Part shown: piece after piece, positions 2,389 through 31,610 of the stretch | Layout: each line of letters starts with the position of its first letter | Position numbering within the stretch: position 1 is the stretch's first letter | NCBI GenBank assembly: GCA_021774795.1 | Contig: JAJFIR010000031.1 | Location: forward strand, 248,001-312,000 | DNA length: 64,000 nt | Reading direction: 5' to 3' | Origin: Emcibacteraceae bacterium | Lineage (GTDB): Bacteria > Pseudomonadota > Alphaproteobacteria > Sphingomonadales > Emcibacteraceae | The notes under the pieces: model-generated | What the model was told of the DNA's origin: nothing | The model's input: only the letters and a program-made list of their open reading frames with translations | Database searches by the model: none | Translations under genes and position numbers: made by a program

Positions 2389-3843
2389 ATGTTATTCAGA
2401 TTTATCATCGCCGCCATGGCAACCACCATTTTGTCTTCAAATGTTTCAGCCCAACAATGGGCACCGCCCGGAGATGCTAACTTACGACGCGATGTAGAAC
2501 TCTTAAAAACCTATAATATTATTCGTGGCCCATTAAATACTTGGCCTATTAGTTGGAAACAAATAACCAATAATATCAATGTGAATGGGGATAATTCATA
2601 TCCAACACATGTGATACGAGCTATTGATAGGGTTAAAAGAAAAATCCCCAACAAAGGATTTCGCGCTTCTGCAACCGCGCGCTACACAAATGAACCGAGC
2701 TTGGTACGTGGTTTCGGTGATAGCGCAAGATCAGATGCGGATTTGACAGTGGCCGCAGCCTTCACAGAAGAGAAAATTGAAGCCAACGTTTCTGTAAATT
2801 ATAGAGATAATGTTAGCAATAATCATGTTAATTTCGACAATTCTTACATAGCAACTCATTTAGGTAATTGGTCCTTATACGCTGGAGCAATAGACCGTTG
2901 GTGGGGACCAGGACAGGACAATACGTTATTATTAAGTACGAATGCTCGACCCATGATGTCTGCAGGGCTACGACGAAATGATCCTAAAGCATTTAAAAGT
3001 AAATGGCTTAGCTGGATTGGGCCATGGACCTGGGATATGTTTGTTGCCAATATGGGTGATGATCGAGTTATTTCTGATGCGTTGTTGGTGGGAATGCGAT
3101 TAGGGTTTGAACCTTTCAATAATTTTGAAGTTGGATTATCACGCACACTGCAGTTATGCGGAGAAGGCAGACCTTGTAATTTTAATTCATGGACTCAGGC
3201 TTTAATTGTTGTAGGGGATCTTGAAAATGGTGCAGTAGCAGTTGATCCAGGAAATCAATTGGCCAGTATTGACCTCTCTTACTCAATGAATTTCGGAAAT
3301 AAAAGTTTAAAGATTTATGCTGAAGGAACTGCTGAAGATGAAGTCTTAATCCCGACACAATATGGACGTCTGGTTGGCAGTACACTGGTTAGCCCTATTG
3401 GAAAGAACGGAGATAATTTAAGCCTTAATGTAGAACTAAGTGATACAAGCGCAGTCAAGTTCTTCTTTTTCGGCCAGCGCTTTCCTGGTTCATTATATAA
3501 TCATGCAAATTATAAAACAGGTCACCGTTTTGATAATAGAACTTTAGGCCATAGTTTGGATAGTGGTAGTAAACTGGCTTCAGTAACTGCTATTTATACT
3601 CACAGTGAAGGAGACAATTATCGGGTTACCTTCCGGAGTGCTACAATAAATTGGGAGGATGTTTCCAGAAATATTGTTAGCTCTGGACGCCAAAAATACC
3701 AAAGCCTAGAATTATCGGCTTCCAAATTGTTTAACTTTGGTTATTTAGAAGCCAATATGAGTTTTCAATCCAAGTCCGTTACGTTGACACAAGGAGTTCT
3801 ACCACGTTTTGTTGGTGGATTAACTTGGCGTATTAATATTTAA
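2389..3843 (+). CDS. Capsule assembly Wzi family outer-membrane protein
   Basis: The 484-residue product has a signal peptide (residues 1-21, cut after VSA) followed by the Wzi-like N-terminal segment with WAPPGDANLRRDVELL and later GPLNTWPISW. The rest is a long beta-rich barrel with an alternating hydrophobic pattern ending in TWRINI, typical of outer-membrane barrels. Length fits the family (about 480). Wzi proteins sit in the outer membrane and help anchor or organise capsule and exopolysaccharide at the surface. It is the first gene of the rightward half of the island, 10 bp before a glycosyltransferase. No wza/wzc export genes are seen nearby. The family assignment is good, but the exact role here is inferred. 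Confidence 0.82.
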   Translation: MLFRFIIAAMATTILSSNVSAQQWAPPGDANLRRDVELLKTYNIIRGPLNTWPISWKQITNNINVNGDNSYPTHVIRAIDRVKRKIPNKGFRASATARYTNEPSLVRGFGDSARSDADLTVAAAFTEEKIEANVSVNYRDNVSNNHVNFDNSYIATHLGNWSLYAGAIDRWWGPGQDNTLLLSTNARPMMSAGLRRNDPKAFKSKWLSWIGPWTWDMFVANMGDDRVISDALLVGMRLGFEPFNNFEVGLSRTLQLCGEGRPCNFNSWTQALIVVGDLENGAVAVDPGNQLASIDLSYSMNFGNKSLKIYAEGTAEDEVLIPTQYGRLVGSTLVSPIGKNGDNLSLNVELSDTSAVKFFFFGQRFPGSLYNHANYKTGHRFDNRTLGHSLDSGSKLASVTAIYTHSEGDNYRVTFRSATINWEDVSRNIVSSGRQKYQSLELSASKLFNFGYLEANMSFQSKSVTLTQGVLPRFVGGLTWRINI

Positions 3844-3853
3844 AAAACTGATT

Positions 3854-5074
3854 ATGAACATATTATATTTCCATCAACATTTTTCGACACCAAGTGGATC
3901 CAGCGGTACGCGCTCTTATGAAATGGCCCGCCGCCTGGTTGCTGCTGGACATAAAGTTACTGTGGTTTGCGGATCCCATATTGGCGGAACAACAGGATTA
4001 AATAATCAGTTTGTCAAAGGTAGGCGCACAGGAGTCATTGACGGAATTTGCATTATTGAATTTCAGCTCAATTATGCAAACCGCGATGGTTTCATAAAGA
4101 GAAGCTGGTTATTTCTATTATTTGCAATCAAAAGTATTAGCGTTGCTCTTTTTCAGAAAGCCGATCTGGTTTTTGCAACTTCTACCCCGCTGACTGCGGG
4201 AATACCGGGCATAGTCGCGCGCTGGATTAAAGGTACTCCTTTCATTTTTGAAGTACGTGATCTTTGGCCTGAGCTACCTAGAGAGATGAAAGTAATTACA
4301 AACCCTGTGATATTGAGTTTAATGAGCTTTTTAGAATGGTTAAGCTATAAGTCAGCACACCGACTAATTGGTTTGTCTCCTGGCATTGTTGAAGGAATAA
4401 TTCGACATAATATTGATGCGAACAAGGTAACACTTATTCCGAATGGTTGCGATCTAGATATTTTTGCATCAAAAGAAAATTCCTGGCGTCCAGCAGGAGT
4501 GACAGATGATGAGTTAATGGCCGTTTTTACGGGCACACATGGTATCGCAAACGGACTTGATGCGGTGCTTGATGTTTCAATTATTCTTAAAAACCGGTAC
4601 GCAAAAAAAATAAAAATAGTGTTAGTGGGTCAAGGTCGGGAAAAAGAAAAATTACGTAAGAGAGCGGCAGCAGAAAATCTCGACAATATAATATTTATGG
4701 ATCCTGTACCAAAGAATCGATTAGCAGGGTTAATGGCCAGCGCAGATGTTGGATTGCAAATCCTTGCTAATGTTCCCGCTTTTTATTACGGCACATCTCC
4801 CAATAAGTTTTTTGATTACTTGTCCTCCGGATTACCCGTTTTAACAAATTACCCAGGATGGGTAGCCGATCTGATCAGTGAGCATGAATGTGGTTTTGTC
4901 GTACCACCGGAAAACGCTAATGAATTTGCAAATGTGCTGATCTTGGCAAGTCAGAATAAAGAAATATTAACTAAGATGAGGCAAAATTCAAAAACACTTG
5001 CAGAAAAACACTTTGCAAGAGATAAGCTTGCAGATCAGTTCTTATGCTGGCTCGAGGGAGAAGATAAAAAGTAA
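3854..5074 (+). CDS. Glycosyltransferase family 4 (WbuB-like)
   Basis: This 406-residue protein has the two-lobed GT-B fold. The N-terminal lobe begins NILYFHQHFSTPSGSSGTRSYE, with the donor-independent GT4 pattern and FEVRDLWPELPREM near residue 135. The C-terminal lobe has FTGTHGIANGLD near residue 225 and GTSPNKFFDYLSSGLPVL near residue 315, the nucleotide-sugar binding region. It probably adds a sugar, often an N-acetylated amino or deoxy sugar in this family, to the lipid-linked repeat unit on the cytoplasmic face. It is probably co-transcribed with the Wzi gene. The acceptor and donor cannot be read from the sequence. Confidence 0.85.
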   Translation: MNILYFHQHFSTPSGSSGTRSYEMARRLVAAGHKVTVVCGSHIGGTTGLNNQFVKGRRTGVIDGICIIEFQLNYANRDGFIKRSWLFLLFAIKSISVALFQKADLVFATSTPLTAGIPGIVARWIKGTPFIFEVRDLWPELPREMKVITNPVILSLMSFLEWLSYKSAHRLIGLSPGIVEGIIRHNIDANKVTLIPNGCDLDIFASKENSWRPAGVTDDELMAVFTGTHGIANGLDAVLDVSIILKNRYAKKIKIVLVGQGREKEKLRKRAAAENLDNIIFMDPVPKNRLAGLMASADVGLQILANVPAFYYGTSPNKFFDYLSSGLPVLTNYPGWVADLISEHECGFVVPPENANEFANVLILASQNKEILTKMRQNSKTLAEKHFARDKLADQFLCWLEGEDKK

Positions 5075-5315: not shown

Positions 5316-5546
5316 GGTATTATTACAACGGATGCGCCGGGATGTCGGGACACTGTAATTGATGGCGAAAATGGGTTTTTAGTGCCAATTAAAAGTGGTA
5401 ATTCTGTAGCAGATAAAATGATGGAATTTATTGAAAATACTGTTCGTGTAGAAGAAATGGGCATGAGTTCATACAAACTAGCGGTAGCAAATTATAACGT
5501 TCATGAAGTGAATGACACTATTTTAAAGCAGATGAAATTAATTTAA
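5316..5546 (+). pseudogene. C-terminal fragment of a GT4 glycosyltransferase
   Basis: From 5316 the frame reads GIITTDAPGCRDTVIDGENG and then FLVPIKSGNSVADKMMEFI, ending at TAA 5544-5546. This is the standard donor-binding C-terminal end of PglA/WbpT-like glycosyltransferases. Only about 76 residues survive, and there is no start codon or N-terminal lobe. The sequence immediately before it is the decayed transposase segment. The loss implies that the ancestral cluster encoded one more sugar-transfer step, presumably made redundant or supplied elsewhere. It is probably not translated. Confidence 0.75.
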
Positions 5547-5561
5547 TATGGGAATAATAAT

Positions 5562-6200
5562 ATGAAAATTGCTATTTTTGGCGCATCTGGGTTAGGACGG
5601 GAGGTTGCAGATATATGCGTGGAAATTGGATATACAGAAATAGTTTTCCTTGTGAAAGATGAAAATGAAAAATGTATATGGCCCAATGAGGTGTTAGTAG
5701 ATAATAAGGAAAATGTAGGTGACTTGCAAAAAAGAGGATTTGTTTTTGCTATTGGCATTGGCGATCCAAAAATTCGTAAAATTGTAGCAGAAAAACACGC
5801 AAATTTAAATTACCCAAATATTATTCATCCTACGGCTACTTTTGGTTTAAATCAGCGGAATGATATAGAAAAATCAAAAGGTATAGTTATTACCGCTGGT
5901 TGCAGAATTACGAACAATATTTCATTTGGTGATTTTGTTTTTGTGAATGTTAATGTTACAATTGGTCATGATTGTATCATTGAAAATTTTGTATCTTTTA
6001 TGACAAGTGCAACGATTTCAGGGAATGTGCATATTAAAAGGGGAGCGTATATTGGGTGCAATGCATCAATTATCCACGGCACTCCTGCGAATAAAATCGT
6101 TATTGGAACTTTTTCTACCATTGGAATTGGAGCTGTCGTTATTAAAAATATTAAAGATGAAATTACGGTTTATGGTAATCCAGCTAGAAAACTGATGTAA
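5562..6200 (+). CDS. PglD/NeuD-type sugar N- or O-acyltransferase
   Basis: The 212-residue protein starts MKIAIFGASGLGREVADI, the Rossmann-like N-terminal domain of the NeuD/PglD family. A left-handed beta-helix of hexapeptide repeats follows. His136, in IGHDC, aligns with the catalytic base of PglD. The end GNPARKLM is typical. PglD acylates the 4-amino group of a UDP-4-amino-6-deoxy sugar with acetyl-CoA, while NeuD modifies sialic acids. The next four genes make and reduce acyl-ACP, and a PglE-like aminotransferase and a PglC-like transferase lie close by. I therefore infer an amino-sugar N-acyltransferase that may take its acyl group from the dedicated carrier protein. Confidence 0.85.
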   Translation: MKIAIFGASGLGREVADICVEIGYTEIVFLVKDENEKCIWPNEVLVDNKENVGDLQKRGFVFAIGIGDPKIRKIVAEKHANLNYPNIIHPTATFGLNQRNDIEKSKGIVITAGCRITNNISFGDFVFVNVNVTIGHDCIIENFVSFMTSATISGNVHIKRGAYIGCNASIIHGTPANKIVIGTFSTIGIGAVVIKNIKDEITVYGNPARKLM

Positions 6201-6211
6201 GGATAGCTTCT

Positions 6212-7183
6212 GTGCCTAATATTACCCATATAGAAACTTATTATCCTAAGAAAATACTGAGTAATTATGATCTTGAGGATATTGACGATGGTTATGATGC
6301 TGAAAAAGTAACTAAAAAACTTGGCATTAGAAATAGGTTTGTTGTAGATAAAGAAACTGCTTTAGATTTGGCCGTTAGAGCCTGCGAGAAACTGGTAAAA
6401 AAAGTAGATGTTTCTTCGATTGATTATATAATCCTCTGTACTCAAAGCCCGGAATATTTTTTACCAACCACTGCATGCATTTTGCAGCATAAACTAGGAT
6501 TGAGTACGAACTGTGGTGCCTTTGACTTTAACCTAGGTTGTTCGGGCTACATATATGGTTTATCCCTTGCTAAAGGCTTGATTTGCTCAAACCAAGCAAA
6601 GAAGGTTCTTCTTGTAACTTCAGAGACTTACACTAAGCATATCAATCAGAAAGACGTGGCAAATAGAAGCATTTTTGGTGACGCTGCAACGGCAACCTTA
6701 ATCGAGTATTCCGAAGATGATAATTTAGGGGAATTTGTTGTTGGAACCGATGGAAGCGGGGCAGAACATTTGATAATAAAAAATGGAGGCTTAAAAAATC
6801 CCAATAAGGATGGTACGGACAATGATTACCTCTATATGAATGGTCCAGAAATATTTAATTTCACCATTAATTCTGTTCCTTCTCTGGTTCAAAAGATTTT
6901 GGATAGGAACGATCAGTGTGTTGATACGATTGATTATTCCGTTTTTCACCAAGCTAATGAATTTATGCTTAAACACCTACGTAAGAAATGCAAAATTCCC
7001 AAAGACAAATTTTATTTAAATATGAAGAATGTCGGAAATACTGTTTCATCGACAATACCAATTGGATTAAAAGCGGCTATGGAAGAAAAACTTATTAGGA
7101 ATAAAAATAAAGTATTGATTGTAGGCTTTGGTGTAGGCTATTCATATGGCGGAACTGTTATCACGCTAAATACTAAGGATTAA
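6212..7183 (+). CDS. 3-oxoacyl-ACP synthase III family protein (first copy)
   Basis: This 323-residue FabH-like enzyme has the full triad: Cys110 in NLGCSGYIYG, His246 in FHQANEFM and Asn276 in GNTVSST. KAS III enzymes condense an acyl-CoA starter with malonyl-ACP to give 3-oxoacyl-ACP. Translation starts at GTG 6212, with AAGGAT nine bases upstream and directly after the acyltransferase gene. The gene ends two bases before the carrier protein gene. It is not the housekeeping fabH, because it sits in a glycan cluster with its own carrier and reductase. The starter unit is unknown. Acetyl-CoA is the simplest guess. Confidence 0.88.
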   Translation: MPNITHIETYYPKKILSNYDLEDIDDGYDAEKVTKKLGIRNRFVVDKETALDLAVRACEKLVKKVDVSSIDYIILCTQSPEYFLPTTACILQHKLGLSTNCGAFDFNLGCSGYIYGLSLAKGLICSNQAKKVLLVTSETYTKHINQKDVANRSIFGDAATATLIEYSEDDNLGEFVVGTDGSGAEHLIIKNGGLKNPNKDGTDNDYLYMNGPEIFNFTINSVPSLVQKILDRNDQCVDTIDYSVFHQANEFMLKHLRKKCKIPKDKFYLNMKNVGNTVSSTIPIGLKAAMEEKLIRNKNKVLIVGFGVGYSYGGTVITLNTKD

Positions 7184-7185
7184 AA

Positions 7186-7416
7186 ATGACGAGAGATGAA
7201 TTCCTACTTGAATTAGCAGAGCTATTAGAAATTGATGAAGTATTACACATTGATACTTCTTTACAAGATATGGAGGAATTTGATTCTCTTGCAATAATGT
7301 CACTGATCGCTCTTATTGATGACAATTTTGATATGACTGTATCCGGCGAAAAGCTAGGTGAGTGTGGTACGGTTACAGATCTAATTGCTTTGATAGGGGA
7401 AGATAAATTTAAATAA
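7186..7416 (+). CDS. Dedicated acyl carrier protein
   Basis: This small acidic protein of 76 residues has the four-helix carrier pattern. The phosphopantetheine attachment serine is Ser34 in EEFDSLAIMSL. Its Shine-Dalgarno AAGGA lies inside the last codons of the preceding KAS III gene, so the two are translationally coupled. The sequence is clearly shorter and more divergent than housekeeping AcpP around the DSL motif (FDSLAI instead of the usual DSLDTVEL). This points to a specialised partner for the flanking synthases rather than to fatty-acid synthesis. Confidence 0.88.
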   Translation: MTRDEFLLELAELLEIDEVLHIDTSLQDMEEFDSLAIMSLIALIDDNFDMTVSGEKLGECGTVTDLIALIGEDKFK

Positions 7417-7439
7417 TTTTTTTTAACTGAGGCCTATCT

Positions 7440-8507
7440 ATGGCGTTTTTTAAATATAACAAAGCTATAATTTCAGGGATTACATCTTGTTATCCAGAAA
7501 ATGTAATAAAAAACATTTCTGCTTCTCCTGTGCTTACGGAGAAAGAAGCAGAGAAAATTATTTCTGTTACTGGAATTAGAGAACGTCGTTTTGCATCTGA
7601 TAATGTGTGCGCGTCAGATTTGTCATTTCAAGCCGCCGAAAATCTATTAAATGGCCTCGACATAGATCGTAATAGTATTGACGTATTAATATTTCTGTCA
7701 CAAACACCTGATTACCTTTCTGTTCCTGCAACATCTTGTATCCTTCAGGATAGGTTAGGTTTATCGACCGAGACGGCGGCATTTGATGTTGCGTTAGGTT
7801 GTTCTGGACTGGTATTCGCACTTTCTACTGCGTACTCATATGTTGAATCCGGGGCAAATAGAGTATTATTGCTGGTGGGGGAAACGATGAGCAGATTTAC
7901 ATCATTGCAAGATAAATCTACTGCTCTTTTATTTGGTGATGGTGCGGCAGCTATTTTAATTGAAAATTCAAAAGATCGCAGTGATAGTTATTTTTCTTTA
8001 AGGACAAATGGCTCAGGGGCTGACGCTATAAAAATCCCCAGCGGCGGATATCGTGATCCAGCCAATTCCGAGAACATTAAAGTCAAAAGATTTGACGATG
8101 GCAGTCTTCGATCTGGCCTAGATGTTGCCATGGATGGACTAAAAGTTTTCGACTTTACGATGAATGAAGTTGTAAAAAATATTAAATCAGTTTTGTCTTA
8201 TGCTGAAGTCACTATAGAAGATGTTGATATGTTTGCTTTTCACCAAGCTAATATGTTTATGCTTGATATGTTCGCTAAGAAGTTAAAAATACAAAAAAAA
8301 AGAATGCCTACATCCATTGAAAAATATGGAAATACGAGCACCGTTTCAATACCACTTACAATAACTGATGCTATGCAAAACAGAACAAACGCTATAGAAA
8401 ATACTATTATGTGTGGTTACGGAGCAGGATTGTCATGGGGATCAGCGTTGATTAATTTGGAAAACTGCAAATATTATGATCATATTGAATATAAGTTAAA
8501 ATTATGA
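7440..8507 (+). CDS. 3-oxoacyl-ACP synthase III family protein (second copy)
   Basis: The 355-residue FabH-like protein has an intact triad: Cys121 in ALGCSGLVFA, His268 in FHQANMFM and Asn298 in YGNTSTVS. It is related to but clearly distinct from the copy encoded just upstream, with an extra loop around residues 205-230. GAGG precedes the ATG at 7440. The final codons overlap the reductase start by 4 bp. Two active KAS III enzymes around one carrier could catalyse two successive condensations, work as a heterodimer, or split priming and transfer roles. The sequence does not decide between these. Confidence 0.87.
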   Translation: MAFFKYNKAIISGITSCYPENVIKNISASPVLTEKEAEKIISVTGIRERRFASDNVCASDLSFQAAENLLNGLDIDRNSIDVLIFLSQTPDYLSVPATSCILQDRLGLSTETAAFDVALGCSGLVFALSTAYSYVESGANRVLLLVGETMSRFTSLQDKSTALLFGDGAAAILIENSKDRSDSYFSLRTNGSGADAIKIPSGGYRDPANSENIKVKRFDDGSLRSGLDVAMDGLKVFDFTMNEVVKNIKSVLSYAEVTIEDVDMFAFHQANMFMLDMFAKKLKIQKKRMPTSIEKYGNTSTVSIPLTITDAMQNRTNAIENTIMCGYGAGLSWGSALINLENCKYYDHIEYKLKL

Positions 8508-9271
8508 GCTTTATTAACGATTTTAAACTTCATGATCAAAAAATTCTTATCACAGGCGCTTCTTCTGGATTAGGCCGAGAGATTGCCGTTGCATGTAGTG
8601 AAGTGGGCGCAAATGTAGCTTTGGTTGGGAGAAATGACGCAGCCCTCCAAGAAACTATGGCTTTGATGAAAAAAGGGGAACATTACAGTTACATATGTGA
8701 CGTTACGGATGGTTTTGCCTTAGGTGAATTATTTAATGCTATAAAGAATGATATGGGACCAATATCAGGTTTCGTGCATTCTGCCGGAATAGAACTTACT
8801 TTACCTTTAAAAGCGAACTCTATTGAAAAATATAGAAATATTTTGGATGTAAATTTGATAGCGGCCCTAGAATTAAGTCGTTATGTGGTGAAAAAGAAAT
8901 ACAGAGATGAAAAGGTAAGTATAATTTTTATCTCATCAATAATGGGGATAGTTGGGTCTCCTGCGCTAACGGCATACTCTGCTTCTAAAGGAGCACTTAT
9001 TGCGTCTTCTAGATCTGCTGCAATGGAATATGCCGACAAAGGTGTGCGATTTAATTGTATATCCCCAGGACATATAGATGGTACAAAAATGGCCTATGAA
9101 TTATTCGATAAGCTTTCACCAGAGGCTAAGAATGACCTAGTCTTAAAGCATCCATTGGGCTTAGGAAAACCTCGCGATGTTGGCAATGCAAGTGTGTTCT
9201 TACTGTCGAATGCATCCTCTTGGATTACGGGTATTAACTTGGTAGTTGATGGCGGGTATAGCGCCCAATAA
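8504..9271 (+). CDS. SDR-family reductase, probably 3-oxoacyl-ACP reductase
   Basis: This is a classical short-chain dehydrogenase of 255 residues. It has the cofactor loop TGASSGLG (residues 18-25), NAG-type SAG at 93-95, Ser145, and the catalytic Tyr158-x-x-x-Lys162 in YSASK. It overlaps the second KAS III gene by 4 bp and closes the rightward operon. By position it should reduce the 3-oxoacyl-ACP made by the synthases to 3-hydroxyacyl-ACP. A sugar-oxidoreductase role is possible, but FabG-like length and context favour the acyl role. The next gene on the other strand ends 11 bp away. Confidence 0.85.
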   Translation: MSFINDFKLHDQKILITGASSGLGREIAVACSEVGANVALVGRNDAALQETMALMKKGEHYSYICDVTDGFALGELFNAIKNDMGPISGFVHSAGIELTLPLKANSIEKYRNILDVNLIAALELSRYVVKKKYRDEKVSIIFISSIMGIVGSPALTAYSASKGALIASSRSAAMEYADKGVRFNCISPGHIDGTKMAYELFDKLSPEAKNDLVLKHPLGLGKPRDVGNASVFLLSNASSWITGINLVVDGGYSAQ

Positions 9272-9282
9272 ATTGGAGCTGA

Positions 9283-9951
9283 TTATTTTCTATTGCCAAA
9301 ATTTTCTTTATCAATTACCGGAATATTTGGAAATATTGAATATAAGACATTACTCTCAGGAAAAAAAACCACCCACACTGTGATAAACATTAGCATTATG
9401 TCACCGAAGAAACTTCTATTTCTCTTGTACCATAATTCAAGGGTTGTCTTTGCTGGGATGATTTCATTTTTGTAGCAATAATCATAACTCTGTGCATTTA
9501 ACAGAATTGTTTCTTCGTCGCGAAAAACGATAGATCCAATTCCTGTTATACCCGGTCTGAGGCCAATAAATACTTCTGCATATTCGTCAGGGTACCATGA
9601 ATGTACTTTAATCATTTGTGGCCTTGGACCCACAAAGCTCATTTTACCGAATAATATATCCAATAATTGTGGTATTTCATTTATTTTGGATTTCCGGAGG
9701 AAGCCCCCAAAAGGTAATATCCTGGGATCGTCTTTAAGTGTATAGCTTCCGCCTTCCATGTTTGGGCTATCTTCAAGCATGGAGGCGAATTTTGTTATTG
9801 TGAAAATTTTGTTGTCCAGTCCGATACGATCCTGACGGTAAAATATCTTATTTTCACCGGAGAAACGCAAAGCGATCACTACTGGAAGTAGGATTGGAGA
9901 AAGTATAATCAATAAGATTAGGGCTACAAAGAAATCAAAAAAGCGTTTCAT
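9283..9951 (-). CDS. PglC/WcaJ-type initiating sugar transferase
   Basis: The 222-residue monotopic phosphoglycosyl transferase has a hydrophobic N-terminal membrane hairpin (residues 4-27) and then the family core with YRQDRIG, ending in KINEIPQLLDILFGKMSFVG and then PRPQM. Enzymes of this kind transfer a sugar phosphate from a UDP sugar to undecaprenyl phosphate and start repeat-unit assembly at the inner membrane. In PglC the active site is an Asp-Glu pair. Here the equivalent pair reads Asn91-Glu92, which is unusual for a characterised enzyme. It is the last gene of the long leftward operon, 12 bp after the aminotransferase. Confidence 0.87.
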   Translation of the reverse strand: MKRFFDFFVALILLIILSPILLPVVIALRFSGENKIFYRQDRIGLDNKIFTITKFASMLEDSPNMEGGSYTLKDDPRILPFGGFLRKSKINEIPQLLDILFGKMSFVGPRPQMIKVHSWYPDEYAEVFIGLRPGITGIGSIVFRDEETILLNAQSYDYCYKNEIIPAKTTLELWYKRNRSFFGDIMLMFITVWVVFFPESNVLYSIFPNIPVIDKENFGNRK

Positions 9952-9963
9952 TCAAGATCCATA

Positions 9964-11181
9964 TTATTTATTAGCGACATTCATCACTTTCTTGATGGCG
10001 TTACACATTGCGTTCATTTCTTGGACGCTTAGCGTATGATGCACGGGAAACATAAAAGATGTTTCTCCTAAGGCGCGGGCGTTTGGTAAATAAGCTTCGG
10101 GTCGATAATTTTCGGGACCGTCGAATGCATTCTCAAGGTAAATTTCGGAGCAAGCTCCGTCGATTACCGGAACGCCTTCTGATCTTAATGCTTCACGAAC
10201 TTTGTCCCGATCCCATCCAACTCTTAAATTTTCAGGAACAATATAAGCGTAATATTTATAATAGACATGATTGCTCCCTTGATCGGGCAATGGCGTGCGA
10301 AATGAAGTAAATTCTTTAAAGCACTCGGTTAAAATATCGGCATTTCTTTTGCGAATTTCCAGCCACTGGTCTAATTTTCCCAGTTGGCAGACCCCTATGG
10401 ATGCCTGCATTTCAGTGAGACGCCAATTGGTGCCAAAACCTTCTGCCAACCACCTAAATCCCGGTGGGTGTTCATAATTATAAACTTTGTCATATCCTCT
10501 TCCATGATCTTTATATGACCAAGCTTTGTTCCAATAACTTTTGTTATTGGTAACCAGCATACCGCCTTCACCGCCTGTCGACATGATTTTATCCTGGCAA
10601 AATGAAAAGCTTCCAATATGACCAATGCTCCCTAAAGGGCGATTTTTATAAGTTGAGCCATGGGCCTGCGCACAATCTTCTATGATAAATAAATCATGTA
10701 TCTTAGCCAACTCCATTATTGGATCCATATCACATGGCCAACCAGCAAGATGTACAACTATTACGGCTTTTGTTTGAGAGGTTATTTTTTCCACGATTGT
10801 TTCAGCGCTCATATTACCGCTATCACAATCAACATCACAAAAAACAGGCCTTGCACCACAAACGACTATTGCGCTAACACTGGCAAAAAATGACCTCGAT
10901 GTTACGATTACTTCATCTTCTGGCTTGATATCAATGGCTTTTAGGGCAAGTTCCAGAGAGACGGTGCCGTTTGCAACTGCGACACCGTACTGCGCACCAC
11001 ATAACTTAGAAAATTTTTCTTCAAATTCTGCACATTTAGTCCCCCCCCAATAATTTACTTTACCGGACCGTAATACCTCCGCGACTGCGGCGATTTCATC
11101 TTCTTCGTAAACAGGCCAAGGTGAAAAAGATGTTCCACATGCCTTTGGGCCACCGTTAATCGCTAATTCGATTTGAGACAT
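9964..11181 (-). CDS. DegT/DnrJ/EryC1-family aminotransferase
   Basis: This PLP-dependent sugar aminotransferase of 405 residues has the internal aldimine lysine at Lys198 in CQDKIMSTGGEGG and the cofactor-stacking segment IIEDCAQAHG (Asp169). Family members such as PglE, WbpE and ArnB convert a 4-keto or 3-keto nucleotide sugar to the amino sugar, with glutamate as donor. Its neighbour is a PglC-like transferase, and a PglD-like acyltransferase lies nearby. A 4-amino-4,6-dideoxy sugar is therefore the likely product. The matching 4,6-dehydratase is not in this window. Confidence 0.9.
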   Translation of the reverse strand: MSQIELAINGGPKACGTSFSPWPVYEEDEIAAVAEVLRSGKVNYWGGTKCAEFEEKFSKLCGAQYGVAVANGTVSLELALKAIDIKPEDEVIVTSRSFFASVSAIVVCGARPVFCDVDCDSGNMSAETIVEKITSQTKAVIVVHLAGWPCDMDPIMELAKIHDLFIIEDCAQAHGSTYKNRPLGSIGHIGSFSFCQDKIMSTGGEGGMLVTNNKSYWNKAWSYKDHGRGYDKVYNYEHPPGFRWLAEGFGTNWRLTEMQASIGVCQLGKLDQWLEIRKRNADILTECFKEFTSFRTPLPDQGSNHVYYKYYAYIVPENLRVGWDRDKVREALRSEGVPVIDGACSEIYLENAFDGPENYRPEAYLPNARALGETSFMFPVHHTLSVQEMNAMCNAIKKVMNVANK

Positions 11182-11198
11182 TGATAATTCACCTATAA

Positions 11199-12194
11199 TT
11201 AATCTGCTGTTACGCCGTGCCCCTCAAAGACATTCTTGACATACCAGTCATAGGTCCGTGAAAGGCCGTCATCGAGGCTTACTGTTGATTGGTAGCCGGT
11301 AAGCGATATTGCCTTTGTCATGTCTGGACAGCGGCGCAAAACAGACCCTTCAGTTTCTGGCATAAAGGTTAACCCCTCACCAATGCTTGTGGCTTTAAGT
11401 ATACCATTGGCCAAAGTTTCCATATTGATCTCATTGTCGGTTGATCCTAAATTCAAGGAGATTCCCTCACATTCAGGGGTCAAAATAACCCTTTCCAATA
11501 GATCAACGGCATCTTCAATATAACAAAACGTCCGCTTGTGAGTGGGCGAATATACCTTTAAGGGCAAATCGTTACTTTCGAGGGTATGAGAGCGTTCAAG
11601 CAAGATAGGAATAACATGTGACATACCCATACGCGGCCCGTATACATTGTGGGGACGAATAATGGTGAAGGGCACCTTTGAGTGCTGGCACATAGCTTCG
11701 CCGTAAATTTTGGATAGCATATACGAGGTTCTTGGTTCGGATAGATTCGTAATTGCGAGTGGGGTGTCTTCAGGTGTTGGGATCGGTAGATCAAAATATT
11801 TTAATGTTCCTGCATAAATCTCACTGGTCGACGTAAATACGAGGCGGTTAAGATCATCCTGCAACTGTGCAAATTCAATAATATTTGACAACAACTCAAC
11901 ATTTTTTGTTAATACTTCATATGGACGTCCTAATACGTGGGGCACCCCAATAATTGCCGCGAAATGGTAAATTACATCATAATCTTTATCCAAGCGTTGA
12001 ATGAATGATTTATTGAGCAAATCTTCCTCAATCATTACGACGTTATCAAGCGCGAGAAACGCTGCTAAATCTGGATCTTTTGCTGCACGGGCAAAGTTAT
12101 CAAGCAGATGAATTTCGTGTCCGCTTTTGTTTAGTTTTTCTGCTAAATGAAGACCAATGAATCCGGCTCCACCTGTTATTAATATTTTACTCAT
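11199..12194 (-). CDS. NAD-dependent epimerase/dehydratase
   Basis: The 331-residue extended SDR has the NAD-binding loop GGAGFIG (residues 8-14) and catalytic Tyr158-x-x-x-Lys162 in SYMLSKIYGE. The pattern fits nucleotide-sugar epimerases, decarboxylases and reductases of the GalE/WbpP/UXS group. The adjacent dehydrogenase makes a UDP-hexuronic acid, so C4 or C5 epimerisation or decarboxylation of a uronic acid is reasonable. The start overlaps the dehydrogenase stop by 4 bp, so they are translationally coupled. The precise reaction is undetermined. Confidence 0.85.
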   Translation of the reverse strand: MSKILITGGAGFIGLHLAEKLNKSGHEIHLLDNFARAAKDPDLAAFLALDNVVMIEEDLLNKSFIQRLDKDYDVIYHFAAIIGVPHVLGRPYEVLTKNVELLSNIIEFAQLQDDLNRLVFTSTSEIYAGTLKYFDLPIPTPEDTPLAITNLSEPRTSYMLSKIYGEAMCQHSKVPFTIIRPHNVYGPRMGMSHVIPILLERSHTLESNDLPLKVYSPTHKRTFCYIEDAVDLLERVILTPECEGISLNLGSTDNEINMETLANGILKATSIGEGLTFMPETEGSVLRRCPDMTKAISLTGYQSTVSLDDGLSRTYDWYVKNVFEGHGVTAD

Positions 12195-13603
12195 TTAGTG
12201 CCTTTTCCTATGAATTGAATATCTACATTATTTTTCGCGCCGTCAAATATTTGCTTCTGTGTTAATACATTGTGAGCATCTAAAAACGTAACAGGATTTC
12301 CGTTTGACCAATCAAATAAATCAATGTCGCGATATTCTGCATGTTGAACTGCAAAAACCACAGCGTCGATGTTCTCTAAAGAAGGGAGCGTGTCATGCAC
12401 AGTTCTTTCTAGCTCTTCCCAATAATTGAGGAGTGGGTCATGAGCTACCACGGTTGCTCCTTCTTTCTCTGCCTCAATCACAAATGGTTCTGATGGTGAA
12501 TATCGTGTGTCACCAACATCCTGCAAATAACTGATACCTAATAACAAAATAATTTTACCTTCAAGATTGCCACCCAATTGGCTTTTAGCCTTGGCAAGAG
12601 CTTTCAAGGGCATTTGTTTGTTTGCAGAGACAGCGCTTTTGCAAAAAGGAAATTCCATACCTTCAATGCCAAAAAGCTCACGTGCTCCGATATCTACGAA
12701 ATGCGGATCTTTGGTTAAGCAATATCCTCCAACGCCAAAGCCAGGAAACCTAATATTGTTATGAGTAGGTCTCATCCTGATCGCGTCAAGTACCTGAAAT
12801 AGATCAACTCCAACCGCTTCAGCAAAACTTCCCCATTCTTGAATAAGCGCTATGTTAGCCGCGCGATAACTGTTTTCAAGTACCTTTGCCGTTTCGGAAG
12901 CTGTTGTCGAATGAAGCCGAGTTAACGGATAATTTTCGACATCTATTACATCTGATAGAAATGCCTCCGCTGCATCGGCTGCATCATCCGTTGCGCCTGA
13001 ATACACACGCCAAAACTTGACAATCGATTTATAGTAATTTTTCCCTGGCATGACGCGTTCGTATGAATGGGCAATCATTACGCTATCCCCATCAAGCCCT
13101 CTCTTCACCATAGATTCCCGTATTTCCGGAACTACTACTTTCTCACAAGTCCCCGGGGGAACGGTTGTTTCAATCAGGATCAATGTCCCGGGTTTTATTC
13201 TCGTTCCTACTGTTTTAAGCGCATTTCGAAAACCATCAAACGATGCTGTGTGTGTACCATCTTCTAGCTCAATAACATCCAAATGAATATCAACCACAAT
13301 AATATCAGCTCGCGAGTAAATAGCTGGATCTGAAGTCGCCTTAAGATTACCCCGATTTATTACCCTAGTAAATGCTTGTTCAAGATCGACATCATTGGTT
13401 ACAAGTGGAAGTTTTCCATTGTTGACGGCCGTAATTTTTTGTTCCCCAGCCCCGTTGGGTAGATCAACCCCAACTACATTATAGCAAGGTTCTCCATCTT
13501 TATCTTGCGCGTCTGCAACGGCGATTGCCATTGCCATGCCCACAAAACCAAGCCCCTGAACACTAACGATCGGCAGCTTTCGATTGAATAAAATTTCACT
13601 CAT
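12191..13603 (-). CDS. Nucleotide-sugar dehydrogenase (UDP-glucose/GDP-mannose dehydrogenase family)
   Basis: This three-domain enzyme of 470 residues has the NAD loop GLGFVGMAMA near residue 17, the central helix with Lys240 and Asn244 (ETAKVLENSYRA), and the catalytic Cys295 in GVGGYCLTKDP. Such enzymes perform a four-electron oxidation of a nucleotide hexose or N-acetylhexosamine to the uronic acid. The ExxxK region resembles the UDP-HexNAc branch (WbpA/WecC) more than UDP-glucose enzymes, but this is a weak judgement. Together with the coupled epimerase it would supply a uronic acid to the glycan. Confidence 0.87.
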   Translation of the reverse strand: MSEILFNRKLPIVSVQGLGFVGMAMAIAVADAQDKDGEPCYNVVGVDLPNGAGEQKITAVNNGKLPLVTNDVDLEQAFTRVINRGNLKATSDPAIYSRADIIVVDIHLDVIELEDGTHTASFDGFRNALKTVGTRIKPGTLILIETTVPPGTCEKVVVPEIRESMVKRGLDGDSVMIAHSYERVMPGKNYYKSIVKFWRVYSGATDDAADAAEAFLSDVIDVENYPLTRLHSTTASETAKVLENSYRAANIALIQEWGSFAEAVGVDLFQVLDAIRMRPTHNNIRFPGFGVGGYCLTKDPHFVDIGARELFGIEGMEFPFCKSAVSANKQMPLKALAKAKSQLGGNLEGKIILLLGISYLQDVGDTRYSPSEPFVIEAEKEGATVVAHDPLLNYWEELERTVHDTLPSLENIDAVVFAVQHAEYRDIDLFDWSNGNPVTFLDAHNVLTQKQIFDGAKNNVDIQFIGKGTK

Positions 13604-17861: not shown

Positions 17862-18737
17862 CTAATCATAAATAGTGTTATTCAGTTTGGCCTGTTTTTG
17901 TATTTCATTTGTTAGTTCATTGGCATCTAATGAAAAAAAGGGGTTTATAAAATAATTATATATGTTCCAATGGGTTTTATTCACATATCGTCGAACAAAC
18001 CTTTCAGGATTTGCAGCTGTCACGATGCTCATATCATGAACCGTAGTAGACACTTGATGAGCCTCCCCATCATAATCTAAACACTCTTTTACATATCGTT
18101 CTGAACTATTCGTTTTTAACGGAAACCCATCCGGATCTAAATCTTCACTCAGATGTACGTATGATACGTACCTCATAGGTACACCTATACCAATTATTTT
18201 TGGCATATATTGTAACAATTTTGCGTATGGGCTTTCTTGATCGTAACTATATTTTGAATACTGATGCGTCTTAAAAACCTCATCGGGAATTGCACCAACT
18301 GATGCCACAGATTTGATCGGATGCACACTTCTAATGGCATCAGGGTGCTTTCTTACAGCCTCTGCTAATGCACCTGTGCCGGACCGTGTTTTCCGTACAT
18401 CAAATTTTCTGCTATCCAACATCGTATCTTTGGAAGGGCGAACAGCAAATGTAGGTGCAGATACACTACCTTCCTTACCCACAATTTCGAGCATTAAATG
18501 CAATGCTTCTTCACTTGAAAATGTTACGTTCATCATAGCGAGTGAACCATGGACAAACAAATGATCTCCCATCTCTATTTTCAATTTTTCTACCAAAATT
18601 TCTTGAAAACGAACTTCTGTAATGGGCGGTAAATTTAATGCCAATTTTTTCCTGAAGTTATATTCCCATCTCTTAACTTTCTTCTTTGTTTCCGCGCTAA
18701 ATATCGGCGTTAATATTTTTCTGATAAAAATTCTCAT
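17862..18737 (-). CDS. AAC(3)-family N-acetyltransferase-like protein
   Basis: I place the start at ATG 18735-18737 (MRIFIRKIL). The longer open frame only reads through the upstream gene. The 291-residue product has the AAC(3) fold pattern, with GDHLFVHGSLAMMNV near residue 57 and later GTGALAEAVRKHP and HPIKSVASVG. Family members transfer acetyl from acetyl-CoA to amino groups of sugars. In polysaccharide clusters they are thought to act on amino sugars rather than antibiotics. The gene follows a deacetylase gene with a 1 bp gap, suggesting a remove-then-reacylate pair. Confidence 0.82.
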   Translation of the reverse strand: MRIFIRKILTPIFSAETKKKVKRWEYNFRKKLALNLPPITEVRFQEILVEKLKIEMGDHLFVHGSLAMMNVTFSSEEALHLMLEIVGKEGSVSAPTFAVRPSKDTMLDSRKFDVRKTRSGTGALAEAVRKHPDAIRSVHPIKSVASVGAIPDEVFKTHQYSKYSYDQESPYAKLLQYMPKIIGIGVPMRYVSYVHLSEDLDPDGFPLKTNSSERYVKECLDYDGEAHQVSTTVHDMSIVTAANPERFVRRYVNKTHWNIYNYFINPFFSLDANELTNEIQKQAKLNNTIYD

Positions 18738-18738
18738 T

Positions 18739-19794
18739 TTAGAACCTAGCGAATTTTCGGCTGTAGGAAGAAATCGTTTCGTATGAAATATTGTAATCCA
18801 ACCTATCAAGTTCTGAGAACAATATATGCAAATCATCATTAAAATAACCTGATTTAGAATGGCCAATAAGCATTATCGGAACATTCGTTATCTTTCCATC
18901 AATATCCTTCATATATTTTACAATCATAGCAATGATTGTTTCTGAGGTAAGATTATTGAAATCAGCGAAATAATAATCTCGCGACAGTATCCTCCTCAAC
19001 TTACCAAAAATATTTAAATTTCGTTCAGCTATTCTCGTTTTGTAAAATCGATTGCTAATTTTTCTCATCATAGAATATTTATAATTTTTATATTTGAACG
19101 CAGCTAGAAAAGCCTTAACTCCCAAGATAGGAAATTCCAGCAAATCTCCTTTTTCATCATTCTGTTGTATGCTTTTCGAAAACTTCCAAAACGGCTTTGT
19201 ATCGGGGTACACACGATAATCGAATTTACCATAAATTGCGTCACTATGCGCCTGCATGACAACTGAGGAATCTACCTTGAGGCCAGTTTTTCTCATTACA
19301 TCTGAAAACTGCTGGTGATCTCCAATTGTTAATGCACCAGCCCTAAATGCTATACATTCATAATCAGGATTGATAGATCTAAGTTCATTTTCAAGAAACT
19401 CTTTTCCTGTTTTCAATATTTGAATTTGATCCTCATACTGTAACTGCGAAATATCAAACAGTTCTAGATCTAGTTTTACACATCCTTCCGAAGAGATTTT
19501 TGCATTAAACCAAGTAGGATGATAATGCAATTGTACATCGTGCCCTCTCCTAACTAGATTTTTTATTTGCATTAGTATTTGATCATTAGCCTCACCGAGT
19601 TTTGGGAACCTATCGCGGTGTTTATCGTAGAATAAAAACTGCCCCATCTCTATAAAACATGTGATATGAGCACCATGCAATTCACAAACATCCATCAAAT
19701 GATTTGTCGGGATTATTTGTTCTCGATTTACATCTCCAGAGCCGTCGCCGAACAGTTCATAATCAATCGATATCATTAAGCTTAGCGTTTTCAT
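18739..19794 (-). CDS. Polysaccharide deacetylase-like protein
   Basis: The 351-residue protein has the NodB-fold opening SLMISIDYELFGDG (metal-binding Asp region) and HDVQLHYHPTWF near residue 110, with paired histidines typical of the metal site. Members remove acetyl groups from amino sugars. There is no signal peptide, so it may act on a cytoplasmic lipid-linked or nucleotide intermediate. It is tightly coupled to the downstream AAC(3)-like gene. About 135 bp of AT-rich DNA with no gene separates it from the methyltransferase. Confidence 0.78.
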   Translation of the reverse strand: MKTLSLMISIDYELFGDGSGDVNREQIIPTNHLMDVCELHGAHITCFIEMGQFLFYDKHRDRFPKLGEANDQILMQIKNLVRRGHDVQLHYHPTWFNAKISSEGCVKLDLELFDISQLQYEDQIQILKTGKEFLENELRSINPDYECIAFRAGALTIGDHQQFSDVMRKTGLKVDSSVVMQAHSDAIYGKFDYRVYPDTKPFWKFSKSIQQNDEKGDLLEFPILGVKAFLAAFKYKNYKYSMMRKISNRFYKTRIAERNLNIFGKLRRILSRDYYFADFNNLTSETIIAMIVKYMKDIDGKITNVPIMLIGHSKSGYFNDDLHILFSELDRLDYNISYETISSYSRKFARF

Positions 19795-20629: not shown

Positions 20630-21541
20630 TTATGTTTGTGTTCTGGTTTGCAGATGATCTGTAATAATCCCCAATAACGCGCCAAAAAATACGGCAATAA
20701 TTGTTGTCATAATTAAAACTAACACAGGTGATGGCGATACTGGATTTATTGACCTTATCGGTAGATCAAACGGTTGTCCGGAATAGTGCTTGCCGGACAT
20801 AGCCATCATTCGTTGTTTTTCTTGACTAGAAAGTATATCTATAAGCGCCTGTCTATATTCTATAATTTTTACGTCTTTAAGCTTATTTTCTATATATTCT
20901 ATATTGTCATTGGTGTTAATCAGAGCGCGTTGTCTTAATGTACTATCACTGATAGAATGAATTGACTGAAGAATTTTTATACCTAACTCAGGATTTTTGG
21001 TTTGCAAAGACAACGTCTCAATCGAATTATCCGCATTCTTATTAATCACTATATTGTTTTCTAAAAATTCATGCATCCTCAACGATCCTGGTTTTTCCCA
21101 AGTTATGGATTGAATACCAATTATTTTTTTCAGCAGATCTTTAACTTTTTTTATGAAATTGTCTGGCTCAACCCACTGATTACGTTTTTTGTCCCACTCA
21201 TTTTCAAAAATATATTTCATTATATCTTCGTCTTCGGACAAGGTTTGCGCGGTTTCAAAGTTATGCACACCTGCAAGATACAAACTAAAATTATTACCTT
21301 CCGCGCCCAACGTGACGCCCGTCAGCATACTCAAATTATTTAAACCACTTGATACTGCATCATTCTTCTCCTCGACCGGGTACACCTTTAAGCTAACCGA
21401 ATACAGGGGAGTAGCGGTGTGCAAATATAATAATGAAATTGGCAACAAAACAAGCAGAAAAATAAGCATTAGCTTTCGCTGATTCCAAATAATCATAGAT
21501 AACTCCCATAGGGAAGGCTCGTGATTATTATTCCTGTCCAT
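20630..21541 (-). CDS. Wzz-type chain length determinant protein
   Basis: The 303-residue protein has two membrane helices, one near residues 30-50 (MLIFLLVLLPISLLYLH) and one near 272-292 (VLVLIMTTIIAVFFGALLG), with a long periplasmic, coiled-coil-prone region between. The NPVSPSPVLVL motif before the second helix is a proline-rich element typical of Wzz/PCP proteins. These proteins set polymer length together with Wzy. There is no C-terminal tyrosine-kinase domain, so this is the short PCP1-like form. It sits directly downstream of the Wzy gene, as expected. Confidence 0.87.
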   Translation of the reverse strand: MDRNNNHEPSLWELSMIIWNQRKLMLIFLLVLLPISLLYLHTATPLYSVSLKVYPVEEKNDAVSSGLNNLSMLTGVTLGAEGNNFSLYLAGVHNFETAQTLSEDEDIMKYIFENEWDKKRNQWVEPDNFIKKVKDLLKKIIGIQSITWEKPGSLRMHEFLENNIVINKNADNSIETLSLQTKNPELGIKILQSIHSISDSTLRQRALINTNDNIEYIENKLKDVKIIEYRQALIDILSSQEKQRMMAMSGKHYSGQPFDLPIRSINPVSPSPVLVLIMTTIIAVFFGALLGIITDHLQTRTQT

Positions 21542-21611: not shown

Positions 21612-22925
21612 CTAATATTCTAATTTTGACCTATGCGCAGCGAGTTCGGACACCATCGCATAGAGGTGTAATAAAATAGACATAAAAAGTGTAGTGAGAA
21701 TTGCAGCATATAATGCGCCTCTACCTATCATTATACACGACATTGCAATTGCAACATAACCTACCGCTAGTCGGATACCGCCTTCTCTAGATAAAATAAA
21801 TTGTACGTAGTGCCTAACTCCCGCCAAAAGCAACGACCAACACCAGAATAGAGGCCCTGAATCCGCGAAAATAGACCCAGGTAAAGTTGGATGCATTGTC
21901 GCATTGAGTGTGCCGTTAAATGCCCAAAACATAACATACTCAAAATCATCTGGCTTTATGCCGCCAGAAAATGAGCTCGGCAACCAGAACAGAAGCGTTC
22001 GTAAAAAATATTGCATTTTTCCAAATTCAGTTACCGCGCTGTATTTTTCAATAAAGTCGTAATAAACACCTCGGACAAAAAATTCTCCAATTCCGCTAAG
22101 TACTTCAAAAACATCAAATCCCGCAACCAACAGTTCCAATCTCTCATCTAAAGAGCCTGAATTTCTCAGTAATTTTGAAATTGAAAAAATTAATACACCC
22201 CCAAGGATACCCAACGCGACAATCGATATTTTTTTGTAAGCTCGCACATCCCAAAAATAAACAAAATACAAAAATGCACACAGCAAAATTTGAACCAAGT
22301 TTTGACGCGTTCCTCCTACACCAAAAAAAATAGCTGTAAGAAGCACCGACAATAATATCGCCAAAAATTTCCGATTGACTACAGCGAGCCACAAAATAAT
22401 GCCAATATAAAGCTTAGGTAATCCCTGAACTAAAAAAGTCAAATACGCTGGAACCGTATCGCGGGCCTCTACAAACCCTAATGAAAATACTCGACCACCA
22501 AACATTCTATATAATATAAACACACCGAATAAAGTTAAACCTATCAAGCCAACAACAAATAGTACTCCTTTCTCGTCATTACTTTTTATTCTTTGTAAGT
22601 CAACTTTTCTCAGTGGTAATGCAAATTCGAAAATCAAACCACCAATATAATATACAAAAATGAAGAATAAGAAATATAGAAGAGCACTCATGATTGTTTC
22701 GAGATTATAACTATGAGTACTGCCAAGATACTCGAAGGCCATCCTTTGCTGTAAAATATCAAAAAATGTTGGCAAAAAGTAGATAGCCACTACCGCACCC
22801 CACATATAGATAAAAGGATTATTTTGCTGCCAATCTTTTTTGACATTTAGATAAAGAATGTAAGTTGTTATAATAAAAATAAGCAGTGTGATTAACAACT
22901 GAAAAGTAGTATTAAAAAAATCCAT
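21612..22925 (-). CDS. O-antigen polymerase-like membrane protein (Wzy)
   Basis: This 437-residue, very hydrophobic protein has about eleven predicted membrane segments and a large periplasmic loop near residues 260-340. There is no strong sequence signature, as usual for Wzy. The assignment rests on topology, a family resemblance to oligosaccharide repeat-unit polymerases (motif region FGVGGTRQNLVQ near 200) and position between Wzz and the glycan-modifying genes. Wzy joins lipid-linked repeat units at the periplasmic face. An O-antigen ligase cannot be fully excluded. Confidence 0.75.
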   Translation of the reverse strand: MDFFNTTFQLLITLLIFIITTYILYLNVKKDWQQNNPFIYMWGAVVAIYFLPTFFDILQQRMAFEYLGSTHSYNLETIMSALLYFLFFIFVYYIGGLIFEFALPLRKVDLQRIKSNDEKGVLFVVGLIGLTLFGVFILYRMFGGRVFSLGFVEARDTVPAYLTFLVQGLPKLYIGIILWLAVVNRKFLAILLSVLLTAIFFGVGGTRQNLVQILLCAFLYFVYFWDVRAYKKISIVALGILGGVLIFSISKLLRNSGSLDERLELLVAGFDVFEVLSGIGEFFVRGVYYDFIEKYSAVTEFGKMQYFLRTLLFWLPSSFSGGIKPDDFEYVMFWAFNGTLNATMHPTLPGSIFADSGPLFWCWSLLLAGVRHYVQFILSREGGIRLAVGYVAIAMSCIMIGRGALYAAILTTLFMSILLHLYAMVSELAAHRSKLEY

Positions 22926-22979: not shown

Positions 22980-23501
22980 TTATCTGTCACAATCGAATAC
23001 TTTTCTTTCATGCTCAATAATTTGTTCTTCAGTAAAACGCATCCTGATTTTTTTTGCCGGTACGCCGCCGTAAATTCCATAGGGCACCACATCACTTGAA
23101 ACTACAGACCCTGCCGCGATAATTGCTCCCCTTCCAATAGTAACGCCAGTTAATATAACTGAGGAACCGCCTATCCAAACATCATCACCAATCTTAACAT
23201 GAGGATCCATGTGGTTCTCATCCTTAACAATACGCGTCATTAGGACTCCCACTCGATCAAAAATGTGGTTGCCGCCATAAACATGAACACCTGGACCAAA
23301 CATTACGTGGGAACCAATATTAATTCGTGAGTGAGTTGTTCTAAACCACGCCTTACCTCCTATAAACACATCATCACCAATAGTTATTGTTTCATATGAG
23401 AATACAGAGTTTAATGGATCAAAAACAACATTACAGCCGCAATTACGAAACTTTTTACGAGAATAATACATCATAATTTTTCTAATAATTTTCAGAACCA
23501 T
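22980..23501 (-). CDS. Hexapeptide-repeat O-acetyltransferase (LbH)
   Basis: The 173-residue left-handed beta-helix protein of the CatB/NodL/WbbJ group contains DDVWIGGSSVILTGVTIGRG and the typical end GGVPAKKIRMRF. It also has the loop with HVYGGNHIFDR that carries the probable catalytic His. It likely O-acetylates a sugar of the repeat unit using acetyl-CoA. Its start lies directly next to the stop of the glycosyltransferase gene upstream, so the two may be translated together and modify the same residue. Confidence 0.85.
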   Translation of the reverse strand: MVLKIIRKIMMYYSRKKFRNCGCNVVFDPLNSVFSYETITIGDDVFIGGKAWFRTTHSRINIGSHVMFGPGVHVYGGNHIFDRVGVLMTRIVKDENHMDPHVKIGDDVWIGGSSVILTGVTIGRGAIIAAGSVVSSDVVPYGIYGGVPAKKIRMRFTEEQIIEHERKVFDCDR

Positions 23502-26208: not shown

Positions 26209-26613
26209 ATGGATAATTTTAAAAGTGATAGAGAGAAGTTAATATCAGACTGGAAAAGAATATATAAATCGACACCACCCAAAGGCCTCAGTCGTCATAC
26301 ATTGGAACTTGCCAAAGAATATAGTAAGCAGGCACAAAAGACGGGCCGACTGCCTAAAAACACCGTCAAACAACTTATCAAAATAGCCAAAATGGGCAAG
26401 AACGAGGTAGAACCTTCGTCATTATCAAATCTTGCAAAGCCGGGAGCGCGGTTAATACGAGAGTGGCATGGGCAAACTTTTGTGGTTGATATATTGGAGA
26501 GTGGCTATCTTTGGCAGGAGAGGATTTATAAATCACTCACACAGATCGCCCGTGAAATTACAGGCACAAATTGGTCGGGGCCGAGGTTCTTTGGCCTCAG
26601 GCATAGAAGATAA
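26209..26613 (+). CDS. DUF2924 protein, partner of the serine recombinase
   Basis: The 134-residue basic protein has the family pattern LIREWHGQTFVVDILESGYL and then IYKSLTQIAREITGTNWSGPRF FGL. The DUF2924 family is strongly linked in alphaproteobacteria to large serine recombinases, as here, where the recombinase starts 10 bp later. It may help DNA binding or regulate the recombinase. Its biochemical function is not established. The pair is transcribed opposite to the flanking glycan genes, marking a foreign unit. Confidence 0.85.
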   Translation: MDNFKSDREKLISDWKRIYKSTPPKGLSRHTLELAKEYSKQAQKTGRLPKNTVKQLIKIAKMGKNEVEPSSLSNLAKPGARLIREWHGQTFVVDILESGYLWQERIYKSLTQIAREITGTNWSGPRFFGLRHRR

Positions 26614-26623
26614 GGTACAGAGC

Positions 26624-31580: not shown

Positions 31581-31610
31581 TTTTATTAAATACCAACCTG
31601 TTGACAAAAA

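Follow-up and report, generated by a model that had tools for sequence, protein, structure and literature searches.

Why does a polysaccharide locus carry two ketosynthase genes, a carrier protein gene and a reductase gene directly behind a sugar acyltransferase gene, and what do their products make together? This question is raised by a 64,000-nucleotide stretch of DNA from an Emcibacteraceae bacterium (assembly GCA_021774795.1, contig JAJFIR010000031.1, positions 248,001 to 312,000; hereafter the window), in which five genes at 5562-9271 form a compact cassette. By analogy with published systems, we consider it likely that the cassette builds an acyl group for a 4-amino sugar of a surface polysaccharide; for this group, 3,5-dihydroxyhexanoyl has, by the same analogy, about an even chance. 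The five genes are as follows.

5562-6200, plus strand: PglD/NeuD-like sugar N-acyltransferase, left-handed beta-helix (PF17836, 7e-12)
6212-7183, plus strand: KS1, a ketosynthase (KS) of the beta-ketoacyl-acyl carrier protein synthase III (KAS III) type, KS1 clade (PF08541/PF08545)
7186-7416, plus strand: dedicated acyl carrier protein (ACP; PF00550, 1e-7)
7440-8507, plus strand: KS2, a KAS III-type ketosynthase, KS2a clade (PF08541/PF08545 and tree)
8504-9271, plus strand: short-chain dehydrogenase/reductase (SDR), predicted FabG-like 3-oxoacyl-ACP reductase (PF13561, 8e-53)

The five genes are one operon with the predicted functions given above, and the tight arrangement described in an earlier reading of the bare letters (the sequence-only reading) holds to the base, the Pfam identities and catalytic residues agreeing with it. 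PglD, KS1, ACP and KS2 are separated by 11, 2 and 23 base pairs (bp), and the KS2 and SDR genes overlap by 4 bp. The PglD-like protein, with PF17836 (PglD_N) above the Pfam cut-off and its predicted catalytic His135 kept, reaches 152.9 bits with the NeuD/PglD/VioB model TIGR03570, under the curated cut-off of 160.8. Both KAS III proteins contain the ACP_syn_III_C domain (5e-25 and 4e-25) and an intact Cys112/His244/Asn274 triad (Escherichia coli FabH numbering), and their scores with the fabH model TIGR00747 (233 and 234) fall under the cut-off of 292. The ACP, which accounts for one of the genome's six PP-binding places, has the phosphopantetheine serine, with a DSL motif at residues 33-35, and the SDR bears the GASSGLG and YxxxK motifs (YSASK, 158-162), scoring 140-159 bits with the NCBIfam FabG models, under their cut-off. 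The genome holds three KAS III genes, namely KS1, KS2 and one on contig C34 that clusters with housekeeping FabH in our tree. A chance grouping of the five genes is excluded because the set recurs in Bacteroidota and in a gammaproteobacterium, and KS1-ACP-KS2 recurs in an Oligoflexales genome.

Beginning 11 bp past the SDR stop, a convergent operon runs towards the cassette, so that the PglC-like and PglE-like genes announced by the sequence-only reading are present, directly downstream:

9283-9951, minus strand: PglC-like phosphoglycosyl transferase (PF02397, 8e-50)
9964-11181, minus strand: DegT-family sugar aminotransferase, PglE-like (444 bits to 7l7x, which is Pcryo_0638)
11199-12194, minus strand: extended SDR with a TSTSEIY...YMLSK motif (PF01370, 3e-40; best NCBIfam model LegB, 121 bits, cut-off 475)
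12191-13603, minus strand: nucleotide-sugar 6-dehydrogenase (TIGR03026, 226.9 bits, over the cut-off of 189.8), which probably serves another sugar

Systems of this kind have been published. The viosamine island of Pseudomonas syringae pv. tabaci comprises vioS (KAS III), acp, vioR (3-oxoacyl-ACP reductase), vioB and vioA; mutants of vioA, vioB, vioT and vioR lose N-(3-hydroxy-1-oxobutyl)-viosamine, and orfA-orfE of Pseudomonas aeruginosa PAK are homologues of the island genes (PMC3927599). The window shares with this island a KAS III, an ACP, a 3-oxoacyl-ACP reductase, a PglD/VioB-type acyltransferase and a sugar aminotransferase, but the island has one KAS III, a deoxythymidine diphosphate (dTDP) sugar and a flagellin glycan where the window has two KAS III and a Wzx/Wzy-type locus. 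The 3-hydroxybutyryl product of the island is backed by mutants and mass spectrometry. For the PAK island, PMC3927599 lists one KAS III homologue, and a second one is rejected accordingly.

Paired synthases are known from Flavobacterium psychrophilum, in which two different 3-ketoacyl-ACP synthases are encoded by wfpC and wfpE, an ACP by wfpD and a reductase by wfpF; wfpG and wfpB encode homologues of PglD and PglC, and pglE and pglF are also present. Nuclear magnetic resonance placed 3,5-dihydroxyhexanoyl on N4 of Qui2NAc4N in the O-polysaccharide of this species, and the authors proposed that the acyl group is made on the ACP and then passed on by WfpG (PMC6519341). Compared by published gene descriptions, both loci have two synthases, an ACP, a reductase, PglD, PglC and PglE; they differ in that F. 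psychrophilum has PglF and a determined product, whereas in the window PglD leads the cassette, with PglC and PglE convergent to it, and PglF was not found. 3,5-Dihydroxyhexanoyl is also reported on QuiN4N of Vibrio cholerae O3 and O100 (PMC8074265). Because of the vio and wfp systems, the idea of a 3-hydroxyacyl-ACP made here, whose acyl group the PglD-like enzyme hands to a 4-amino sugar, is both supported by precedent and already published in substance (PMC3927599; PMC6519341), paired synthases included. The paired KAS III set had been thought distinctive, which it is not: wfpC-wfpG were published in 2019, and we found 25 paired loci. What is new here is the lack of KS1-ACP-KS2-SDR at the identical spot in a congener, the Pcryo_0638-like aminotransferase, the losses at the coenzyme A (CoA) site and the pairing of two synthase clades.

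From these likenesses we infer the most likely order of reactions. The KAS III pair and the SDR would assemble a short 3-hydroxyacyl chain, carried by the dedicated ACP: one synthase would yield acetoacetyl-ACP, to be reduced by the SDR, and the other would add two carbons to the 3-hydroxybutyryl chain, a second reduction then giving 3,5-dihydroxyhexanoyl-ACP. The PglD-like enzyme would then take this chain from the ACP and attach it at the C4 amine of a uridine diphosphate (UDP)-4-amino sugar, most likely UDP-Qui2NAc4N, and the PglC-like enzyme would load the acylated sugar phosphate onto undecaprenyl phosphate. Calling such a module self-contained was an overstatement, for it depends on other genes for malonyl-ACP loading, for phosphopantetheinylation and for the 4,6-dehydratase. 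Likewise, the 3-hydroxybutyryl group that had been named is probably too narrow a choice, the six-carbon 3,5-dihydroxyhexanoyl being at least as likely with two apparently non-redundant synthases.

How far the two synthases differ can be judged from their relatives. Scanning with KS1 turned up 29 loci in several phyla, and the window proteins were mapped on those and on Bacteroidota genomes, where both single-synthase and two-synthase sets were seen, the 25 paired loci again belonging to several phyla. The order PglD-KS-ACP-KS-SDR is identical in Bacteroidota loci L130, L131 and L133: L130 and L131 read PglC-PglD-KS-ACP-KS2-SDR, and L133 reads PglC-PglD-KS-ACP-KS2-SDR-PglE, its PglE being 52% identical to that of the window, although L130-L133 carry KS2b where the window has KS1. 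Within one Bacteroidota genus, the same slot holds either a two-synthase cassette, PglC-KS1-ACP-KS2a-(Rieske oxygenase)-SDR-PglD-PglE (L196, L197), or a one-synthase cassette, PglC-ACP-KS2a-SDR-PglD-PglE-PglF (L194). Plasmid records of Parabacteroides distasonis list an annotated acetyltransferase, ACPs, an AMP-binding protein (AMP, adenosine monophosphate), a KAS III and an SDR. Beside KS2 and SDR, paired Bacteroidota clusters carry a Rieske-type ring-hydroxylating oxygenase gene (L196 7516-8601, L197 7401-8480, L136 7705-8790 and L137 8040-9128), assigned by Pfam for L196 and by sequence likeness for the others; this enzyme may hydroxylate the acyl chain further, and none lies near the window cassette.

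Two trees, of 111 and of 149 sequences, separate the module synthases from housekeeping FabH and divide them into KS1 and KS2 groups, with moderate support (0.95 and 0.90 in the former tree, 0.76 and 0.55 in the latter, in which the KS1 group also includes five KS from flagellar loci). The window KS2 falls in the KS2a subgroup (support 0.96), whose other members here are only Bacteroidota. Since KS1 and KS2 are 38% identical and lie in separate clades, a recent tandem duplication of one synthase is rejected. Different KS groups are combined in 19 of the 25 paired loci, and in none of them is KS1 or KS2a paired with its own kind. Because pairs usually join two clades, redundancy of the two synthases is improbable. 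Three module synthases, one of them an incomplete sequence, lack an intact triad, and all the others have it; a PqsB/PqsC-like pair in which one partner is dead is rejected for the window, where both triads are intact. In two other paired clusters, the KAS III-like partner has alanine for the catalytic cysteine (L190 466 and L192 2501), as in a chain-length-factor or PqsB-type partner. The KS of flagellar locus L153 was considered as a possible VioS and set aside.

The CoA site also differs from that of E. coli FabH. Trp32, Arg36 and Arg249 are missing from every one of the 119 module synthases but are found in all 25 of the housekeeping and other KAS III compared; they are likewise missing from the five KS of flagellar loci, which were counted separately. 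In the window, KS1 has K, K, V and F for FabH W32, R36, R151 and R249, and KS2 has K, V and F for W32, R36 and R249. In FabH, Trp32 and Arg36 are active-site residues at the CoA end, and Arg249 is a CoA/ACP contact; the loss of these three residues suggests that the module synthases may accept a different acyl donor and raises a concrete biochemical question on the starter unit.

These residues bear directly on the alternative that survives best, which we regard as possible rather than probable: the product would be the four-carbon 3-hydroxybutyryl, one synthase making acetoacetyl-ACP and the other being redundant or providing the starter (decarboxylation of malonyl-ACP to acetyl-ACP would be one way), as neither synthase retains the FabH CoA-site residues. 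The absence of W32, R36 and R249 from both synthases fits it, as do the single-synthase cluster of L194 and the fact that (S)-3-hydroxybutanoyl stands on N4 of QuiNAc4N in many more glycans than does dihydroxyhexanoyl (PMC8074265; PMC10609480). However, the joining of two clades in 19 of 25 pairs with no KS1-KS1 pair, the two intact triads and the six-carbon group of the published paired system of F. psychrophilum all weigh against a four-carbon product. A short acyl group of another kind, such as 3-hydroxy-3-methylbutyryl, begun from a branched or different starter, is improbable: Qui4N in a Shewanella polysaccharide does bear 3-hydroxy-3-methylbutyrate or 3-hydroxybutyrate depending on the medium (PMC3210612), and FabH Phe87 is replaced by Leu and Val in the window synthases, but the operon has no starter-supply gene, whereas the variants of Parabacteroides and G996 have an AMP ligase. 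In variant cassettes L164, L165 and L223, an AMP-binding ligase adjoins a single KAS III, an ACP and an SDR, and may load the starter acid directly onto the ACP.

As for the acceptor, the aminotransferase at 9964-11181 is about 52% identical to Pcryo_0638 of Psychrobacter cryohalolentis, which was shown to produce UDP-2-acetamido-4-amino-2,4,6-trideoxy-D-glucose (UDP-Qui2NAc4N) (PMC8040287). Its conserved FSFCQDK contains the equivalents of Gln183, which binds the 2-acetamido group, and of Lys185, and in the alignment the uracil-stacking Phe335 and Tyr229 of Pcryo_0638 correspond to Ile and Phe. The PglD-like protein is of the same type as Pcryo_0637 and has a GTPxxKxxIG insertion in common with it and with 4m9c. 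Given a Pcryo_0638-like aminotransferase with Gln183 and the Pcryo_0637 insertion in the PglD-like protein, the acceptor is likely UDP-Qui2NAc4N supplied by the neighbouring aminotransferase. The Psychrobacter system differs in that Pcryo_0637 takes acetyl-CoA, with no acyl-building genes described alongside (PMC8040287).

The cassette is sporadic within the order. At E <= 1e-50, KS1 was matched in 3 of 198 genomes of the order: the window genome, G1015, with KS1-ACP-KS-SDR-PglD-like (L222), and G996, with SDR-AMP ligase-KS2-ACP-SDR (L223). In the congener G1007 (L219), GT4-PglD (GT4, glycosyltransferase family 4; PglD 57% identical) is convergent with PglC (85%), PglE (80%), SDR (93%) and dehydrogenase (79%), PglD and PglC standing 4 bp apart with no KS1, ACP, KS2 or SDR in between; DNA similarity to the window extends from 9293 onward, at 76%. 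PglD likewise adjoins PglC without KS1-ACP-KS2-SDR in G1016 (L221) and G959 (L224). The window PglD is 57-59% identical to the same-locus PglD of relatives, pairwise identities among these proteins being 57-62%, and its third-position GC content (GC3) is similarly low; being no outlier in identity or GC3, it was probably resident at the locus. Insertion in the window genome or loss in the congener would explain this difference, and we favour insertion because the distribution is sporadic and KS2 is Bacteroidota-like. A C-terminal GT4 remnant between the GT4 and PglD genes (5322-5546), absent from the GT4-PglD junction of the congener, marks a further rearrangement beside the cassette. With the remaining pathway conserved, presence and absence within one genus provide a natural pair for testing the rule of synthase number.

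That PglD stands beside PglC without KS1-ACP-KS2-SDR in these relatives would fit an enzyme that only acetylates, KS1-ACP-KS2-SDR then feeding another acyltransferase (e.g., 17862-18866 or 22980-23501) or a small molecule, but this is very improbable, as PglD heads the operon and travels with KS, ACP and SDR across unrelated phyla, and vioB and vioR mutants of P. syringae lack the acylated sugar (PMC3927599).

Several points weigh against a six-carbon acyl group on UDP-Qui2NAc4N. Since PglD occurs without the cassette in relatives, the window PglD may still prefer acetyl-CoA. Pairing across clades exceeds a shuffle only modestly (p = 0.023, taken over the first 19 pairs without correction for relatedness; these pairs are non-independent). 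The equation of two synthases with six carbons rests on one published system for each case (one synthase, C4; two synthases, C6), and the Rieske oxygenase of some paired Bacteroidota clusters (L196) counsels caution on chain length, because a hydroxyl could come by another route. Finally, no PglF-type UDP-N-acetylglucosamine 4,6-dehydratase was found in the assembly by the PF02719 profile (58 contigs, 99.5% complete), and a PglF encoded elsewhere in the genome is rejected on this ground; the sole strong PF02719 match, a PseB-like gene, has flagellin and pseudaminic-acid-type genes as neighbours. The extended SDR at 11199-12194 may be a candidate for the absent step. Its TSE motif is that of dehydratases and decarboxylases, which makes a GalE-type epimerase less likely. 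A homologue search with this protein gave one other genome, in an uninformative context. Pseudaminic-acid-type genes lie between flagellin genes at L148 of this genome (contig C46: 45000-64000) and would serve a separate flagellin glycan.

Taken further, and with more doubt than confidence, the cassette might represent a carrier-only, two-step mini-polyketide line, in which the synthases, their FabH CoA-site residues lost, draw acyl groups from the cognate ACP instead of CoA and perform one condensation each, synthase number sets the length (one for C4, two for C6) and cassettes are exchanged as units. Amino-sugar N-acyl groups help define O-antigen and capsule serotypes; if synthase count and clade do predict the acyl chain, this side chain could be read from the genome.

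The wider locus is, on its predicted gene content, a surface polysaccharide locus of the Wzx/Wzy type, with further glycosyltransferases beyond those in this list:

2389-3843: Wzi
3854-5074: GT4 glycosyltransferase
5322-5546, plus strand: GT4 glycosyltransferase C-terminal remnant, in-frame (PF00534, 2.9e-6, profile positions 120-166 of 172)
17862-18866: AAC(3)-like protein
20630-21541: Wzz
21612-22925: Pfam-negative membrane protein, putative Wzy by length and position
22980-23501: hexapeptide protein
24670-25920: second membrane protein, putative Wzx

As Wzi, Wzz, glycosyltransferases and PglC flank the cassette, a secondary-metabolite locus is rejected. Within the polysaccharide locus, a large serine recombinase with Resolvase and Recombinase domains (26468-28249, plus strand) adjoins the putative Wzx gene and offers a possible route of cassette exchange. 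Also in the polysaccharide region, a CDP-alcohol phosphatidyltransferase domain protein (28909-30063, minus strand) adjoins a flippase-like protein (30099-31640).

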